Part shown: positions 21,208 to 30,573 of the stretch, piece after piece
How the letters are laid out: each line of letters begins with the position of its first letter
Numbering within the stretch: the stretch's first letter is position 1
Origin: Stygiolobus caldivivus
GTDB taxonomy: Archaea > Thermoproteota > Thermoprotei_A > Sulfolobales > Sulfolobaceae
Direction: 5' to 3'
DNA: 64,000 nt
NCBI RefSeq assembly: GCF_019704315.1
Contig: NZ_AP024597.1
Location: forward strand, 2,516,501-2,580,500
Program-made: the position numbers and the translations under genes
The notes under the pieces: model-generated
Told to the model about the DNA's origin: nothing
What the model saw: the letters and a program-made list of their open reading frames with translations, nothing else
Database searches by the model: none

Positions 21208-21597
21208 CTAGTTAATGAATTCTACTTCGTCATTTATACCTATAAGTTCCTTTTCTCTCCTGAAGAGTGCCTTTGTATTTAGGAATTTAGCAGTTCCTAT
21301 AGCGAAGCAATCAGCTAAGGAAATCGAGTACTTGCACTTGCATTCTGATGCATACTTTAAAATTTTGGGTTTTACTCCAAATATCTCAAAGTATCCAGAA
21401 TTTATTAAGCCTTTAAATATCTTTTCTGCCTTTTTCCTCCCTAACCTCCTGCAAAGCACGTAATATACTTCGGCAAGGTTCACTACACTGACGTATGCTG
21501 TTACTTCTTGGTTAAGTATCTTGTCGTAATATTCTCTGAATTCACCTTCTAGAAAGGAGAGAATTACTCCAGTATCAAGGACTACTTTTTTCATCAT
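21208..21597 (-). CDS. vapC: VapC-type PIN-domain toxin
   Basis: A 129-residue PIN-domain protein. The acidic residues expected for the metal site can be placed: Asp in VVLDTGVI near residue 8, Glu in VVNLAEVYYVL near 44, and Asp in SLADCFAIGTA near 97. VapC toxins are endoribonucleases; their target here is unknown. The ATG overlaps the antitoxin stop (23 bp), as is usual in VapBC operons. The frame is intact and full length. The pair is enclosed by inverted repeats, so it may have moved as a cassette. Confidence 0.85.
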   Translation of the reverse strand: MMKKVVLDTGVILSFLEGEFREYYDKILNQEVTAYVSVVNLAEVYYVLCRRLGRKKAEKIFKGLINSGYFEIFGVKPKILKYASECKCKYSISLADCFAIGTAKFLNTKALFRREKELIGINDEVEFIN

Positions 21598-21811
21598 CTT
21601 CCTTGCGTCCCTTCAGAAGTTCTTCATATAAGTTTTCCCCTTTTGCTATTCCGAAAAGTTCTTCAGCGAGTTTCCTGTCCTTAAACTTTCTCTCAATTAA
21701 GTATTTTATTACGTCGTCATAGGAAACTCTTCTTCCTAATTTCTTTTCAAGCATTCCGGCAATTTCAGTAAGCTTTTTCTTAGTCTCCTCTTTCACTTTT
21801 ATGCTTTCCAT
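21575..21811 (-). CDS. vapB: VapB-type antitoxin
   Basis: A 78-residue protein from ATG 21811 (a TTG seven codons earlier at 21832 is possible). It has an N-terminal strand (SIKVKEETKKKL) and two helices, as in ribbon-helix-helix antitoxins, and a basic/acidic tail (LLKGRKEDDEKSSP) that would wrap the toxin. It likely represses its own promoter; a TATA-like AGCTTTATATAC sits upstream on the minus strand near 21833-21844. It is paired with vapC by overlapping ends. Confidence 0.75.
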   Translation of the reverse strand: MESIKVKEETKKKLTEIAGMLEKKLGRRVSYDDVIKYLIERKFKDRKLAEELFGIAKGENLYEELLKGRKEDDEKSSP

Positions 21812-21879
21812 ATTTTCCACTTTTTCCACCAAGTATATAAAGCTTTATTGAGTTAGTGCTTTGTGGAATAGTTTAATTT

Positions 21880-22260: not shown

Positions 22261-22485
22261 ATGGAGAAAGTGGTAATAAAGAGAGTTGATAGTCAAGGGA
22301 GGGTAGTTATACCAAAAGAATGGAGGGATAAGTTTAACACTGACGAGTTCGTACTTGTTTTAAAAGAAGATAAGATTGAACTTTATCCCCGCGTTTCAAA
22401 CTTAACAAAACTTATTGACAGTATTGATGTTGAAGAATTGCCCGGTGATTGGCATGAGCTTAAACGTAAAGTTTATAGACTCTAA
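22261..22485 (+). CDS. vapB: AbrB-type VapB antitoxin
   Basis: A 74-residue protein with a SpoVT-AbrB fold: VVIKRVDSQGRVVIPKEWRD then FVLVLKEDKIELYPR. The Gly-Arg-Val-x-Ile-Pro core is diagnostic. The C-terminal 25 residues (LPGDWHELKRKVYRL) would bind the toxin. It overlaps the vapC start by 32 bp. It differs in fold from the antitoxin of the neighbouring locus, so the two pairs are not recent duplicates. Confidence 0.85.
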   Translation: MEKVVIKRVDSQGRVVIPKEWRDKFNTDEFVLVLKEDKIELYPRVSNLTKLIDSIDVEELPGDWHELKRKVYRL

Positions 22486-22882
22486 CGTGTTTGTTTATGC
22501 ATTATTGAAACCAAAACGTTCAGTTGATGAAAAGATTGTAAAAATGAAAGAGAAAGCAAAGGAAATATTGACACGAATTGATAACGGGGAGGAAAAAGTT
22601 CTAACTACTGTAGTCCACATTTCTGAAATTGCTAACGTAATCGAGAACTTGTCTAGCCTCACGACCTCAATTAAGGTTATAGAAAACGTAATTAACAACG
22701 AAAACATTCTCGTTAAAGAAGTCACAGTACAAGATTACACTGAAGCTGTTAAAATAGCCAATGAGGAAAGCGTAAGCATTAACGATGCTCTAGCTTATGT
22801 CATAATGATGAAAAACGGTATTAACGAGATTTATACTTTTGATGAAAAACATTTTAAGAAATTGAATGTAAAGATTTTGTAA
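22454..22882 (+). CDS. vapC: VapC-type PIN-domain toxin
   Basis: A 142-residue PIN protein. The start at ATG 22454 gives MSLNVKFIDSNVFVYALLKP, with the first catalytic Asp in FIDSNVF; a Glu lies in VHISEIANVI near 57, an Asp in SINDALAYVIM near 112, and the end YTFDEKHFKKL is typical of VapC. An upstream start would add 13 residues but lies inside vapB and lacks domain support. It probably cleaves RNA when freed from its AbrB-type antitoxin. Confidence 0.85.
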   Translation: MSLNVKFIDSNVFVYALLKPKRSVDEKIVKMKEKAKEILTRIDNGEEKVLTTVVHISEIANVIENLSSLTTSIKVIENVINNENILVKEVTVQDYTEAVKIANEESVSINDALAYVIMMKNGINEIYTFDEKHFKKLNVKIL

Positions 22883-23260: not shown

Positions 23261-23695
23261 GCTTATATTGACACCAGCATTTTCATTTGTGTTACTTTAA
23301 AGAACCCTGGATCTTTATAATGATGCTATAAAATACTTGATATGCTAGTATCTGGTGGGTTTAAAGGCTTTGGCTCTCACCTTATACTGTTTGAGCTCTT
23401 TGGTAGCTTATCTAAGATCGATATAAAAGCCATATACGACGCTGTCAATTAGTACCTAGACCTTCCAATAACAATACTGGAAATGAACAGGGATCCTTCT
23501 GGTTACGCTAAAGAAATAGCAAAACTTTCAGTAACTTATGATGCATTACATGCTGCTTTAGTAAGCCAGAACGGGGTTAAGGTAGTTATTACTGAAGATG
23601 CGAATGACTGGAGCAAAATAGGGGAGGTCTGGCCTAAAGTAAAGGAAAAGCTTGACGTTAAAGATAATAGTAGTAGTTTCTCCTACGAAGGGTAA
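23261..23695 (+). pseudogene. VapC-type PIN toxin, decayed
   Basis: The remnant begins without a start codon (AYIDTSIFICVTLKNPGSLY, first catalytic Asp present), is interrupted near 23320 and again near 23452, and ends with an open frame that includes YAKEIAKLSVTYDALHAALV, with the PIN Asp, and KVVITEDANDWSKIGEVWP. The 70-residue frame from 23483 is just this last part, not an independent gene. Confidence 0.65.
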
Positions 23696-24188
23696 ATTAG
23701 TATAAAACGATTTACAAATAGAGCAAAAACTCATTATCTTATACTTGCTCAGAAACTAAAGGACAAACACCAGGTCCTTTAGATTAACAAGGTTTTCCTA
23801 ATCCCACATTAATAGTGTTATTGTCCTTTATGAATTAACTGAGTATAATAATAAGCAATACCTTATCATTAGTGTATAACTGAGATAATAGAAGAAATTA
23901 TAGTTCTCACACCCTTATTTGTTCTAGCATGAAAACCAGTAAGTATTTGCTAACTAACTAGGGTTGTAAACATAATTTTCTGTCTCTCCTTTATTTCCTC
24001 ATTCCCACGCATCTGTTAAGGCTGTTTATATTTTCTATGCTGGACTAGGTATTTTCCTCTATTGAGTTGTTTTTAAAGTATCTCATGATTTTCATCTATT
24101 ACCTAGTTTAGTTTGCATTAAAATAGGGTGCGATTATCAAAAGCATTCTGATTATAGTTAACTTTTTTTTTAAAATCTCAATTCACTT
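23696..24188. other. Non-coding region upstream of the halocin-like gene
   Basis: About 490 bp with no open frame that I can support. A T-rich tract followed by TTTTAAAATC (24167-24177) is a likely promoter for the gene at 24189, which would be almost leaderless. Confidence 0.4.
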
Positions 24189-24854
24189 ATGCCTCAAAAT
24201 TTAAAGCCTAAAAATATTAAACTGTTGCATTATGAAGAGAAGAAGAGTGATAAACAAATTTTTAGACAAGGAGTTACTCTAATAGAGTATGAAAACGCTC
24301 CATCAAAGATAATATCTTGGAGTCAGCTAATAGAAGGCGATCCTTTTGGAGAACATGAAATAACGTATAGTAGGATAAATTATGGTTCAGAGAGTGTATC
24401 GAGGAGGTTCAAGGTCAAGTATTTAGGAAAGGAAGGGGATAAGCATAGAGTTTTAATAAAAGAAGGCGTAAGTGGTTGTAGAACTAGGAGCAGAAGAATA
24501 GAGAACGAGGAAATATTAATACCAGATAAACTATACCAGCCTTACCCTTTGCAACAGAAGAGCGAAGAAGGGAAAGACCCAAATCCTATAGAATGTGAAA
24601 TTTGTAAAGTACTGGTTGGTGTGCTATGTGGATTACTTGCGACTAAAGTAGCTAGTGCGATTGCATGTGATGAAGTTTGTGATATTGACGTCTGTATAAT
24701 ATTTATTGAGGATCCGATTATTTACATTATATGTGCAGGGTCATGCGATATAATATGTAATGAGGTTTTACAGATTATTTTACAAATTGGTATTGATAAG
24801 GCTTGCACAATAGGTGGTGATTACGTATGTGAAAAAGCTGGGTTTTGTTGTTAA
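24189..24854 (+). CDS. Halocin-C8-like cysteine-rich bacteriocin precursor
   Basis: A 221-residue protein with two parts. Residues 1-130 are charged and soluble. Residues 131-221 form a compact hydrophobic module with 13 cysteines (136, 139, 147, 160, 164, 169, 182, 186, 190, 206, 214, 220 and 221) opening CEICKVLVGVLCGLL and closing with ACTIGGDYVCEKAGFCC. The order (Cys-x2-Cys start, Gly-Leu-Leu core, final Cys-x-x-Ala-Gly-x-Cys) resembles halocin C8, a 76-residue disulfide-rich archaeal peptide cut from the C-terminus of a precursor whose N-terminal part gives immunity. No Tat or Sec signal is visible, unlike the halophile precursor. A membrane gene follows within 48 bp. Confidence 0.65.
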   Translation: MPQNLKPKNIKLLHYEEKKSDKQIFRQGVTLIEYENAPSKIISWSQLIEGDPFGEHEITYSRINYGSESVSRRFKVKYLGKEGDKHRVLIKEGVSGCRTRSRRIENEEILIPDKLYQPYPLQQKSEEGKDPNPIECEICKVLVGVLCGLLATKVASAIACDEVCDIDVCIIFIEDPIIYIICAGSCDIICNEVLQIILQIGIDKACTIGGDYVCEKAGFCC

Positions 24855-24901
24855 TTTTTTTTTACAAAAATTTTTATAAAAGATAAATAAGTATTCTAAA
24901 A

Positions 24902-25501
24902 GTGGTCATGATGACGGATGAGAGAAGAAGGATTATCTTTGGTCCAACCAAAAAAATATCGACTTTAAAATATCTCTTACTTATGTTATTATTTTCAGCG
25001 TTACCATCGGCTGTAGTATATATTCTAGCTGATGAAATTCTTTATACCTATTCGCATAACTCCGTTTTATCATCTAATTTGAGCTTCTTAATATCTGCAA
25101 TATTGTTAGGAATATCAAGCATTTACATTAACAGATATCTTATGAGGCGTGGGATAAGACCCCCTGGAATTAGGAAAAAAGAGGCTAGGACTAAGTACAC
25201 ACTTTCTCCGGAGAGCGGACAACCTATTGATGAAAAAGTAATAAAGAGGTATGAGAAGGCGTTAGCGTTTTCGGATAAGGAGTCGGAAAATTATATAGCA
25301 GAGTTAGCTATTCTTGGTATGATGTATTTACAGAACGCTGTAGCTTATAATAACAAAGACCTCTACTTGAGGGCTAAGGACTACTTATCAAAGGCTGAGG
25401 AGGCGATGCATGAAAGGAGTGTGAGCTTTGAGACTAAAGCACTCGTTGATAATTTGAGGAGTAAGATCGAGACTTATAAATATCGTTTTGGGGAAAGATA
25501 A
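24902..25501 (+). CDS. Two-TM membrane protein downstream of the halocin-like gene
   Basis: A 199-residue protein with two hydrophobic segments (about 24-44 and 58-78) and a cytoplasmic, helical C-terminal part (about 105-195) whose repeats (AELAILGMMYLQNAVAY, YLRAKDYLSKAEEAM) look like a TPR-like helical pair. GTG 24902 lies about 26 bp from a TATA box (TTTTTATAAAA, 24870-24880), suiting a leaderless start; ATGs at 24908 and 24911 are alternatives. Its own promoter means separate expression. It could be the immunity or secretion partner of the adjacent peptide, an inference from position alone. Confidence 0.55.
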   Translation: MVMMTDERRRIIFGPTKKISTLKYLLLMLLFSALPSAVVYILADEILYTYSHNSVLSSNLSFLISAILLGISSIYINRYLMRRGIRPPGIRKKEARTKYTLSPESGQPIDEKVIKRYEKALAFSDKESENYIAELAILGMMYLQNAVAYNNKDLYLRAKDYLSKAEEAMHERSVSFETKALVDNLRSKIETYKYRFGER

Positions 25502-26266: not shown

Positions 26267-28441
26267 TCACTTTTCCTTAATTAGGACTCTTGGTAAGTCT
26301 GTCACATTTACTTCATTTCTAATCTCTTCGTTAGTAAGGACGTCGAGATATTCCCCATCTATCCTTATAGTCTGTTCTCCTAGACTTGCTAATGTCTTTA
26401 CGATAACTAGTATTCTCTTTCCTCTGGTAAATCCGCAAAGGCCTAATGGTAATTTCAGCGGTTCGTAACTCCCGTTAATTATTACTTCGTCATATAGTTG
26501 CCTTAAATGAAGCAACTTATATGTAGTGTAGACCTTTATTCTCCCATCGTCCATGTTCCTCGACATTAGGCTGTCATATTTCTTAGAATTTTTTAGAAGT
26601 GTATTTAATTTGTCGAAGTCTACACTTCTCCTGTTATCTGGATCCGTCAATAAATATCTCCACGTCTCAGTGCCTTGATAGAAGTCTGGTACGCCAGGTG
26701 ATAAGACCTTTAGTGTGAGTAGAGATAAGGATTTAATCATACCTAATTTCCTGATTGTAGTTTCGTATTCAAGAAATGACCTCTGGAACTCTTTATTATC
26801 AAATGTTTCATTAACTAGTTCTATTAATTTATTTTCATATTCTTGGTTTATTTTTAGCCATGAAGTGTGTTCTTTAGCCTCTCTTACACTTTTAATCATA
26901 TGAGATTTTAGCCTCTCTTTATAGTCGACTGTAAACCCCTCATAATAGCTCCCTACCAATACTTGGTAAAACCTGTATTCTGTATTTCTATCTACTTTTG
27001 GGTTCAGGATCTCATGCCACTCTTTTACTCTTTTTTCCCATTCTTTTGGTTTTTCGCTGATTGCACTTATTTTCATCCTTACATCTTCACTAAATTTAGT
27101 GTCGTGCGTGCTTGTGGCGTTTAATGATAATGACGAGATACGAGAGCTATTAAATTCATGGAATTTGCTACAGTCAAAGTGGTAATAAGCTAAATTACTA
27201 CCGACCTCGTTAAGGGAAACAAGCCTGTTATATCTATATAGGAAAGTATCCTCATACGCCTTTGCGAAAACTGCTGGCATGAACTGTTGGAGTTTAGTAT
27301 ATATTTCTGGTCTTTCTTTAGCTGCTTTTGATATTTCTTCTCCCTTGTCGCACTCCTTAATTACCTCGTTATTATAAGTCCTATAACGAGTTAAGCAGCT
27401 CAGGTAATTTTTCAATGTTTCGGTGCTAACGCCCAATAGCTTTGAAAGTCGTGATACCTCGTAATTAAATAGTTCTTCGATGACGAATTTCTTAGCCTCT
27501 TTTATAGCTTTATCTATATCGTATGTGAAATCAGTACCTATAAAGTCGTAATAAACTCTTGTCATGTCTTCTTCATTGAAAGTATATAATAGGTTGGAGA
27601 AATTTAGAAAATCATATCCGGTAGTGCCATCCGGCCCGTTGAATAATTTTTCATCGAATGACAATATTTTTTCTACTAAAATTATTTTATTCTTGGATTT
27701 TTCTTTTAGCTTTTTCACATATTTTTCTGGCTCATATAGGCCATCGACATGGTCTATTCTAAATCCGTCTACATCAAATTCAAGAATTTTCTTGTGCGTT
27801 TCCTCAAAAACAAAATCAACTTCTTGGTTTATTGCTATTAATTCGTTTACATCAAAAAATCTTCTATAAGAGGGTGGTTCTTTCCAGTACGTCAGTTCAT
27901 AAAACTGGTCTCTGAGTGTTTCGTTTAGGTCTTGTCCCATCCGCGATAAGGGTAGCCTCCAATCATGATATTTTAAGAAATAATTGCCATCCTTATCTTT
28001 TATTATTTCTATAAGACCACGTGAGACAACATTATCAAGGCTGTCCTCAAGTATCGGTAACCTTATTTTATTTTCCTCTTTGTAAAAATCAAAGAACTGG
28101 TAATATTTACTCGTCTTGCCGTTCTTTAAAACGTCCATTAATCTCCAATTATCTGAGTGAACCGCTGTATGGTTAGGTACTATATCTTGGATTATACCAA
28201 GGCCTTTCTCTTTTGCTTTTCTGATTAGCTCTCTATATTTATCTTCCCCACCAAGTTCTGGGTTTATTTTTGTGTGGTCGGTTACGTCATAACCATGAGT
28301 ACTTCCTGGTCTGGCCTGAAAGACTGGAGATAGATATAGGTGTGAGATACCTAGTTCTGTGAAATAGTCTAGATGTTCTATTACATTATCAAAATTAAAG
28401 CCTTTATTTAACTGAACTCTATAGGTAGATAGAAGTTTCAT
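26267..28441 (-). CDS. treY: Malto-oligosyltrehalose synthase TreY
   Basis: A 724-residue GH13-family enzyme that turns the reducing-end alpha-1,4 link of a maltodextrin into an alpha,alpha-1,1 link. The N-terminal STYRVQLNKGFNFDNVIEHL and SPVFQARPGSTHGYDV are typical of TreY. Catalytic elements: DVDGFRIDHVDGLYEPEKY (nucleophile Asp), then KIILVEKIL (acid/base Glu). The C-terminal LSPGVPDFYQGTETW matches the family. Length is normal (about 720). Its start overlaps the end of treX by 4 bp (ATGA). The product is cleaved by TreZ to give trehalose. Confidence 0.96.
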   Translation of the reverse strand: MKLLSTYRVQLNKGFNFDNVIEHLDYFTELGISHLYLSPVFQARPGSTHGYDVTDHTKINPELGGEDKYRELIRKAKEKGLGIIQDIVPNHTAVHSDNWRLMDVLKNGKTSKYYQFFDFYKEENKIRLPILEDSLDNVVSRGLIEIIKDKDGNYFLKYHDWRLPLSRMGQDLNETLRDQFYELTYWKEPPSYRRFFDVNELIAINQEVDFVFEETHKKILEFDVDGFRIDHVDGLYEPEKYVKKLKEKSKNKIILVEKILSFDEKLFNGPDGTTGYDFLNFSNLLYTFNEEDMTRVYYDFIGTDFTYDIDKAIKEAKKFVIEELFNYEVSRLSKLLGVSTETLKNYLSCLTRYRTYNNEVIKECDKGEEISKAAKERPEIYTKLQQFMPAVFAKAYEDTFLYRYNRLVSLNEVGSNLAYYHFDCSKFHEFNSSRISSLSLNATSTHDTKFSEDVRMKISAISEKPKEWEKRVKEWHEILNPKVDRNTEYRFYQVLVGSYYEGFTVDYKERLKSHMIKSVREAKEHTSWLKINQEYENKLIELVNETFDNKEFQRSFLEYETTIRKLGMIKSLSLLTLKVLSPGVPDFYQGTETWRYLLTDPDNRRSVDFDKLNTLLKNSKKYDSLMSRNMDDGRIKVYTTYKLLHLRQLYDEVIINGSYEPLKLPLGLCGFTRGKRILVIVKTLASLGEQTIRIDGEYLDVLTNEEIRNEVNVTDLPRVLIKEK

Positions 28442-30573
28442 GCTTCCACTCTTCTGTAGACTAGAGCGGTTTTTCCGTCTATCTCTTTTTCGGTTCCTCC
28501 TTCTACTATCTCCTTTCTATCTTCTAGGTATGGGTGTAATACCAGTTCCCATTTGCCTTGGGGGAATTTGAACTTAATATTATTATTTCCCCCATTTAGT
28601 ATTATTAAGAAAGTGTCATCAGCTATTCTCTCCCCGTATTTGTTTATCTCATCTATTGCGCTCCCTTCTAACACATAGGCGATAAAGTTAGTATTTGATT
28701 TCCATGTAGCTTCATCTACTTCTGCCCCGTCAGGCTTCAGCCAAGTTACGTCTTTCATAGGCAGTCCGAATAGTTTTCTACCTTGAAAGTACCTTGCTCT
28801 CCTAAATATAGGGTGAGCTCTGTAAAAGTATATGAGTTCTCTGACAAAACTATGAAATTTTAATTTTCTATCGTCTAAATTCCAATCGAACCAGCTTATC
28901 TCGTTATCCTGACAGAACGCATTGTTATTTCCTTTTTGTGTCCTCCCTATTTCGTCCCCTCCTAAGATCATCGGTATACCTTGGCTCGTGAAGAGCGTTA
29001 TTAGAAGATTTCTCTTTTGTTTTTCTCTACACATTATCACGTTCGGGTCTTGGGTTTCCCCCTCAAATCCACAATTCCAACTGTAGTTTTCATTCATCCC
29101 GTCTTCGTTATTGAGTTGGTTAGCTTCGTTATGTTTTTGGTTATAACTCACTAAGTCCGCTAACGTAAACCCATCGTGAGAAGTAATGTAGTTTATACTT
29201 GCAAACGGGGTCTTATTATTCCCGGCATAAAGGTCTGGTGATCCTAATAATCTATTTGCTAATTCTTCGAAGGGTACCGCATCTCCTTTCCAAAACCTCC
29301 TAATATCGTCTCTGTACTTCCCGTTCCATTCTGCCCATAAATAGGGGAAATTGCCTACTTGGTAGCCTCCCGGTCCCACGTCCCAAGGTTCTGCGATCAG
29401 TTTAACTTGTGATAGGACTGGGTCTTGCTGGATTGCTACGAAAAATGTCGATAGCATGTTTACGCTGTATAGCTGGCGTGCCAATGCTGAGGCTAAGTCG
29501 AACCTGAACCCATCTACGTGCATCTCTAATACCCAGTATCTTAAGCTGTCTAGGACCATCTGGAGGACTCTAGGGTGTGACAAGTTAAGTGTATTCCCAG
29601 TCCCGGTAAAATCAAGGTAATACCTAGGGTTTTTGGGGTCTAATAAGTAATATGCTCTATTATCTATCCCTTTGAAGCTCAGGGTCGGTCCTAAGTGGTT
29701 CCCTTCAGCTGTGTGGTTATAAACTACGTCTATTATAACCTCAATTCCGGCCTCGTGAAGTTTATTTATCATTTTCTTAAACTCATAGACTTGTTCTCCT
29801 AAGCATCCGCTACTAGAATAACGACATTCTGGGGAGAAGTAATTAATAGGGTTATATCCCCAGTAATTCTTAAGTCCTTTTTCTATTAAGAACCTTTCGT
29901 CTACAAATTGTTGAATTGGCATAAGTTCTACGGTAGTCATTCCGAGATCCTTAAGGTAGTCGATCATTGTGTCAGAAGATAGTCCATCGAATGTCCCTCT
30001 TACATTTTCCGGGAGGTCTTGCCTAAGTTTTGTAAACCCCTTAACATGAAGCTCATAGATAACTGTATCGTTCCAAGGTATCTTTTTCTTCATAAAAAAA
30101 TGTCCATCTGTCCAGTTAAAATAAGGGTCTATTACCACACTTTTGGGTATAAATTTATCGTCTTTTCGTTCATCAAACGATAGGTCTTGGTTTTGTTCAC
30201 CTATCTTATAGCCAAAGACTGTGTCGTCCCATGTCAAACCCCCATTAATCGCTTTAGCGTAGGGGTCTATCAGTACCTTATTAGGATTAAACCTTAAGCC
30301 TTCTTCGGGTTTATAAGGTCCGTAGACTCTATAAGCGTATAGTTGTCTAGGTCTTATCCCAGGGACAAATACGTGCCATAAGTCACCGGTCTTCTGCGTA
30401 ACTTCAATTACTTCTTTTGGTTCGTCCTGTTTTATGTTCGAGTATAGCAGTAGCTCGACTTTTGTTGCGTTTTCTGAGAAAATAACAAAGTTAGTACCGT
30501 CTTCTTCTTCGATCCACGTGGACCCTATCGGGTAAGGCTCACCTGGTCTTAGAGGTCTATCCCTATTCTTCAT
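28438..30573 (-). CDS. treX: Glycogen debranching enzyme TreX
   Basis: A 711-residue GH13 isoamylase-type debranching enzyme. N-terminal carbohydrate-binding region ([19 protein letters not shown]), then catalytic blocks [29 protein letters not shown] (nucleophile Asp), [11 protein letters not shown] (Glu) and [15 protein letters not shown] (transition-state Asp). TreX removes alpha-1,6 branches from glycogen to supply linear dextrins for TreY and TreZ. It overlaps treY and treZ by 4 bp at each side, giving a tightly coupled treZ-treX-treY operon typical of Sulfolobales. Confidence 0.96.

Follow-up and report, generated by a model that had tools for sequence, protein, structure and literature searches.

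A predicted halocin-C8-like toxin and its membrane-protein partner form a two-gene cassette in Stygiolobus caldivivus

Two adjoining genes at the locus

We analysed a 64,000-nucleotide (nt) stretch of the Stygiolobus caldivivus genome (Sulfolobales; contig NZ_AP024597.1, positions 2,516,501 to 2,580,500 of the forward strand), hereafter the window, in which a gene for a predicted toxin precursor with a cysteine-rich, halocin-C8-like C-terminal domain is followed directly by a gene for a membrane protein of 199 amino acids (aa), here called the partner. The host genome, assigned to the family Sulfolobaceae, measures 2.96 megabases (Mb) and forms a single contig. The features of the locus, given in window positions, are the following.

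24150-24175, plus strand: promoter-like stretch GATTATAGTTAACTTTTTTTTTAAAA 5' of the toxin gene, identified by conservation (promoter function putative)
24189-24854, plus strand: toxin precursor gene, 221 aa, an open reading frame (ORF) with ATG start
24189-24593, plus strand: residues 1-135, conserved N-terminal domain ending in the linker YPLQQKSEEGKDPNPIE, delimited by sequence comparison
24594-24851, plus strand: residues 136-221, cysteine-rich halocin-C8-like domain, the predicted toxin, identified by its match to TIGR04449
24855-24863, plus strand: run of T in the sequence, candidate archaeal terminator of the toxin gene
24871-24881, plus strand: TATA-like box TTTTTATAAAA of the partner gene, about 26 nt upstream of the GTG at 24902
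24902-25501, plus strand: membrane protein of 199 aa with two spans, predicted to give cognate immunity, an ORF with GTG start at 24902
24962-25147, plus strand: membrane hairpin of the partner, helices 21-51 and 54-82 (AlphaFold2), the part that varies with toxin class
24594-25308, plus strand: exchange block of toxin domain, intergenic region and partner membrane part, delimited by DNA identity between the two modules of genome G026

An earlier note on this DNA had described a 221-residue protein with 13 cysteines in its C-terminal 86 residues, and both the ORF and the cysteine count confirm it. Upstream of the toxin gene the pattern ATTATAGTTAACTTTTTT..AAA is kept in eight of the nine loci compared and partly in the ninth, and the transcript is probably leaderless; a sigma-70 promoter scan was set aside as unsuited to archaea. 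Full-length relatives of the precursor share 75-84% identity with it and evolve under purifying selection, the ratio of nonsynonymous to synonymous divergence (dN/dS) between the window precursor and copy G026a being about 0.06 in the N-terminal part and about 0.15 in the C-terminal part. Residues 1-135 are hydrophilic, match no Pfam or NCBIfam family and are predicted, with low confidence, to be beta-rich. A hydropathy scan found no hydrophobic segment among them, and the precursor has no visible signal peptide, in agreement with the earlier note. The structure model of the precursor is of low confidence (mean predicted local distance difference test score, pLDDT, 42.9), which makes a fold search with it meaningless.

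The partner could be modelled better (AlphaFold2; mean pLDDT 85.9), as two long N-terminal helices and a C-terminal helical bundle. The two membrane spans announced in the earlier note were recovered, as was a TATA-like box of the partner's own, which is not clearly conserved among relatives. With the 199-aa model Foldseek returned no match at E <= 0.001, sequence searches against solved structures gave nothing convincing, and neither PADLOC nor PHROGs gave a match.

The cysteine-rich domain and the halocin C8 family

The cysteines of the C-terminal domain lie at residues 136, 139, 147, 160, 164, 169, 182, 186, 190, 206, 214, 220 and 221, a density far above the window background (among 100 window frames of at least 86 codons, the next best holds 7 cysteines per 86 residues and the mean is 2.0). 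The motif order that had suggested halocin C8 in the earlier note (Cys-x2-Cys, Gly-Leu-Leu, Cys-x2-Ala-Gly-Phe-Cys) is present as C136-x2-C139, CGLL at 147-150 and C214-EKAGF-C220. All 13 cysteines are kept across both toxin classes of relatives described below, a C-to-R change in the G158 copy being the single exception.

The NCBIfam model of the halocin C8-like domain, TIGR04449, has a curated cutoff of 24 bits. In the profile search that the earlier note had proposed, residues 131-221 alone exceeded this cutoff (27.3 bits; 26.2 bits in the genome search), whereas the whole protein, at 23.3 bits, fell below it. The match, which lies on residues 136-220, runs through the entire model (positions 1-69) and takes in both the opening Cys-x2-Cys and the cysteine motif at the C-terminus, and TIGR04449 is the sole NCBIfam family matched by the window protein and six relatives, the latter scoring 18.4-30.2 bits. 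None of 35 shuffled sequences (33 with cysteines fixed, 2 fully shuffled) matched the model, so cysteine spacing and composition do not account for the match. Pfam gave no match to the window precursor up to E = 10. A narrow hidden Markov model (HMM) of three haloarchaeal domains could not tell the window domain apart from cysteine-fixed shuffles, 103 of 2000 of which reached its score, and hhalign of seven Sulfolobales domains against four halophile domains returned a probability of 1% with both alignments very shallow. A 76-aa halocin C8 query was used solely to retrieve the halophile records and as the fourth row of the halophile alignment. As the narrow halophile model fails against shuffles, it is the broad curated model that carries the halocin link; homology has support at the level of this family and none from a direct resemblance to haloarchaeal halocin C8.

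The window protein and the halocin C8-like proteins are alike in carrying a cysteine-rich, hydrophobic C-terminal domain of one curated family at the end of a longer precursor. They differ in the number of cysteines (about 10 in halocin C8, 13 here) and in the leader, which is of the twin-arginine type in two of three halophile precursors, fetched from plasmids, and absent from the window precursor. On two haloarchaeal plasmids (L044, 4304-4510; L045, 4299-4505) a 68-aa hydrophobic protein is encoded directly 3' of the halocin-C8-like gene, and it is possible that this is a separate immunity gene.

Distribution, mosaic divergence and decay of the cassette

The toxin gene has a match in 9 of the 31 genomes of the family. 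Two full-length relatives are carried by G026 and one by G014, while shortened, frame-shifted or stop-containing copies occur in G012, G013, G014, G015, G024 and G029, with a remote copy in G006. A sample of 398 genomes of the phylum adds just G158, from another family, and a weak hit in G344 (E = 0.0027, mainly to the N-terminal part). In virus, phage and plasmid collections we found no relatives of either gene, the phages having been queried with the 199-aa protein only. At each of the seven loci where the toxin domain is open (the window, G026a, G026b, G014, G012, G015b and G158), the partner lies directly 3' of the toxin; three of these (G012, G015b and G158) have an N-terminal part that is absent or no longer in frame, and no open toxin of this group was seen without a partner among the loci compared. 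The partner is also found alone, with no toxin copy, in five genomes (G001, G007, G020, G028 and G030).

Genome G026 carries two modules, one for each of the two main toxin classes seen so far (A and B), and their comparison reveals a mosaic. Between a point ahead of the ATG and codon 133, their DNA is mostly 91-98% identical, with one block at 83%; across the toxin domain, the intergenic region and the partner membrane part identity is 33-65%; in the C-terminal part of the partner it is 83-86%. At the protein level, (i) the N-terminal domains are near-identical between the classes (93% identity, synonymous divergence dS 0.30), (ii) the toxin domains share 58% (dS 2.1), (iii) the partner membrane parts share 36% (dS 3.5, near saturation), and (iv) the partner C-terminal parts share 75% (dS 0.82). 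Such sharp steps in dS argue for recombination between common ends, as differing selection alone would not produce them. At the seven open loci, the distances of the toxin and of the partner membrane part are correlated at r = 0.98, as against 0.85 for the partner C-terminal part, linkage having a share in this. In the partner tree class A forms one clade and the solitary G001 partner falls among class B, several forks being weak.

The toxin domain has been lost by three different deletions with the partner kept: G015a lacks about residues 136 to 200 beside a full-length 180-aa partner, G024 is deleted from about residue 122 beside a full-length 195-aa partner, and G029 is deleted from near the end of the N-terminal part to the stop, again beside a full-length 180-aa partner. 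A metagenome-assembled 'Thaumarchaeota' contig from GenBank (L046), on which stops interrupt the toxin while the 182-aa partner is intact, makes a fourth such locus. Both toxin and partner have been lost at some loci. Patchy occurrence accompanied by decay is the pattern expected for competition genes.

Several further observations concern relatives of the two genes. In G026 (L020, 6985-10391) a class A partner gene interrupted by a stop codon stands upstream of a class B module, which indicates that partner genes can accumulate in arrays. In three genomes of another family, f30, distant partner relatives (L064, 3978-4571; L066, 4138-4719; L068, 4186-4754) adjoin genes for aconitase and triosephosphate isomerase, with no adjoining cysteine-rich gene and with the L068 copy frame-shifted; remoter paralogues, at 22-25% identity, adjoin ABC-2-type permease genes in G024-G026 (L039-L041). 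The remote toxin-like ORF of G006 (L029, 7868-8535) lacks the 130-aa N-terminal domain, and its C-terminal cysteine motif is readable solely in another frame. It is followed by a two-span frame that has no usual start codon and no relation to the 199-aa protein. Taken with the hydrophobic ORFs of the two haloarchaeal plasmids, this frame suggests that toxin genes may more widely be followed by one for a membrane protein.

In the window, PIN-domain toxin-antitoxin genes precede the toxin gene: on the minus strand (21208-21832) a PIN gene accompanied by a weakly VapB-like antitoxin, and on the plus strand (22261-22882) a MazE/PIN pair that is 89-94% identical to the pair beside the broken toxin copy of G013, a likeness that hints at a common mobile island. 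A 70-aa piece at 23483-23695 resembles the C-terminal part of a 161-aa ORF of L026. Beyond the cassette, two adjoining alpha-amylase-family genes of 724 and 711 aa (26267-30573, minus strand) probably serve ordinary trehalose or glycogen metabolism.

A polymorphic toxin-immunity reading and its alternatives

A constant N-terminal domain, exchangeable tips, a neighbour that co-varies with the tip, retention of the neighbour after loss of the tip, and neighbours that occur alone are, taken together, consistent with a polymorphic toxin-immunity system. From these comparisons we regard it as fairly probable that the locus is a polymorphic, bacteriocin-type two-gene cassette in which the 199-aa membrane protein acts as the cognate immunity protein. 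The label of a new bacteriocin family, used in the earlier note, is fair as a prediction. Four points weigh against such a cassette: in direct comparison the tie to haloarchaeal halocins is weak; the co-variation of toxin and hairpin is partly expected from physical linkage; the partner, having distant relatives with no toxin nearby, may have an independent role; and the precursor, lacking a signal peptide, would have to be exported by some other route.

The earlier note had placed immunity in the precursor itself, taking the N-terminal part for a built-in immunity module, and a self-immune precursor of the halocin C8 kind would leave the downstream membrane protein as an exporter or accessory. 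The domain order is indeed that of halocin C8, which is reportedly cleaved to a toxin and an immunity protein (PMC8628083), and the N-terminal part stays open in the three toxin-deleted copies. Halocin C8, however, has the N-terminal domain PF22862, which scores 152-173 bits in the two halophile precursors tested and has no match in the window precursor, whose N-terminal domain is unrelated to it by profile search. Moreover, this domain is common to both toxin classes and does not track them, whereas the partner hairpin does, and five genomes have the partner and lack the N-terminal domain. An immunity role thus suits the second gene better and is unlikely for the N-terminal part. Since both classes share that part, it more probably serves as a carrier or for targeting or silencing; we rate the self-immune precursor as the least probable of the three alternatives. 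By the comparison of domains, immunity most likely lies in a separate, unrelated membrane protein here, in contrast to its place within the halocin C8 precursor.

An addiction-type toxin-antitoxin or selfish module, in which the cysteine-rich domain would act from inside the cell on the cell's own membrane and the 199-aa protein would be a membrane antitoxin, predicts the pairing of toxin and partner equally well. The absence of a signal peptide leaves room for it, and VapBC- and MazE/PIN-type modules lie close upstream in the window. Yet two interchangeable classes and solitary partners fit competition between strains better, the closest family is one of secreted haloarchaeal peptides, and 13 cysteines suggest an oxidising place; we consider such a module unlikely, if less so than the other alternatives. 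Improbable, too, is a non-toxin role as a cysteine-rich membrane or metal-binding protein with a housekeeping membrane partner, an explanation that draws on the wider partner relatives without a cysteine-rich gene and on the weak direct similarity to haloarchaeal halocins. A gene found in so few genomes of the family, and often as a pseudogene, is not what it would lead one to expect; nor are the repeated loss of the cysteine-rich domain with the partner kept and a mosaic divergence typical of antagonism loci.

Under the toxin-immunity reading, the first gene would encode a precursor in which a conserved carrier (residues 1-135) is joined to a halocin-type tip (residues 136-221) that is interchangeable, rich in disulfides and active on membranes. 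The tip would presumably be freed by cleavage within YPLQQKSEEGKDPNPIE, the probable site since the conserved part stops there; for halocin H4, a protease is reported to release an active C-terminal fragment, and the same is stated of halocin C8 (PMC12893001). The membrane hairpin from the second gene would recognise the cognate tip and protect the producer, the conserved flanks would permit tip and antidote to be swapped jointly through homologous recombination, and cells that have lost the tip and retain the antidote would be immune non-producers. The sequences themselves show the domain match, the invariant pairing, the mosaic divergence and the one-sided loss; killing, cleavage, disulfides, membrane damage, export and the immunity function are elements that we infer. 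We propose more tentatively, as a possible extension, that a leaderless carrier delivers exchangeable tips and that the tip/antidote cassette is traded among Sulfolobales and other hot-spring archaea.

Among known systems, polymorphic toxins are described as having a constant N-terminal part, a variable tip, an adjoining cognate immunity gene, solitary immunity genes and recombination between paralogues (PMC9484751). The window cassette resembles such toxins, the bacterial type VI/VII effectors, in its constant N-terminal part, variable tip, predicted immunity genes (both neighbouring and solitary) and paralogue recombination; it differs from them in that its tip is small, halocin-type and archaeal, with no known secretion-system marker domain. 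In the Sulfolobales, sulfolobicin was described as the only toxin characterised before a viral toxin, B310 of SSV9, whose gene is followed by that of C108, a membrane protein with several spans that has been put forward as its antitoxin (PMC8628083). The SSV9 pair and the window genes share the order of a toxin gene with a membrane protein gene immediately 3', but B310 is about 310 aa long, has a signal peptide and is virus-borne, whereas the window genes found no viral or plasmid relatives in the collections searched. The sulfolobicins of Sulfolobus are, as predicted for the window protein, antagonistic proteins of Sulfolobales; their toxin proteins carry signal peptides, and by description they stand apart from the window precursor, in which none is visible. 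The 2019 survey of archaeal toxins by Makarova et al. in mBio reportedly expanded the halocin C8 family, and such proteins may already have been mentioned in silico, there for example; as far as could be checked, neither the structure of the cassette nor the assignment of immunity has been described before.

If the reading holds, halocin-type tips would connect the toxins of salt-loving and hot-acid archaea, with immunity sitting outside the precursor, in contrast to halocin C8. Polymorphic toxin-immunity exchange would then operate in hot-spring communities, and a genetic test would be at hand for which strains inhibit which.
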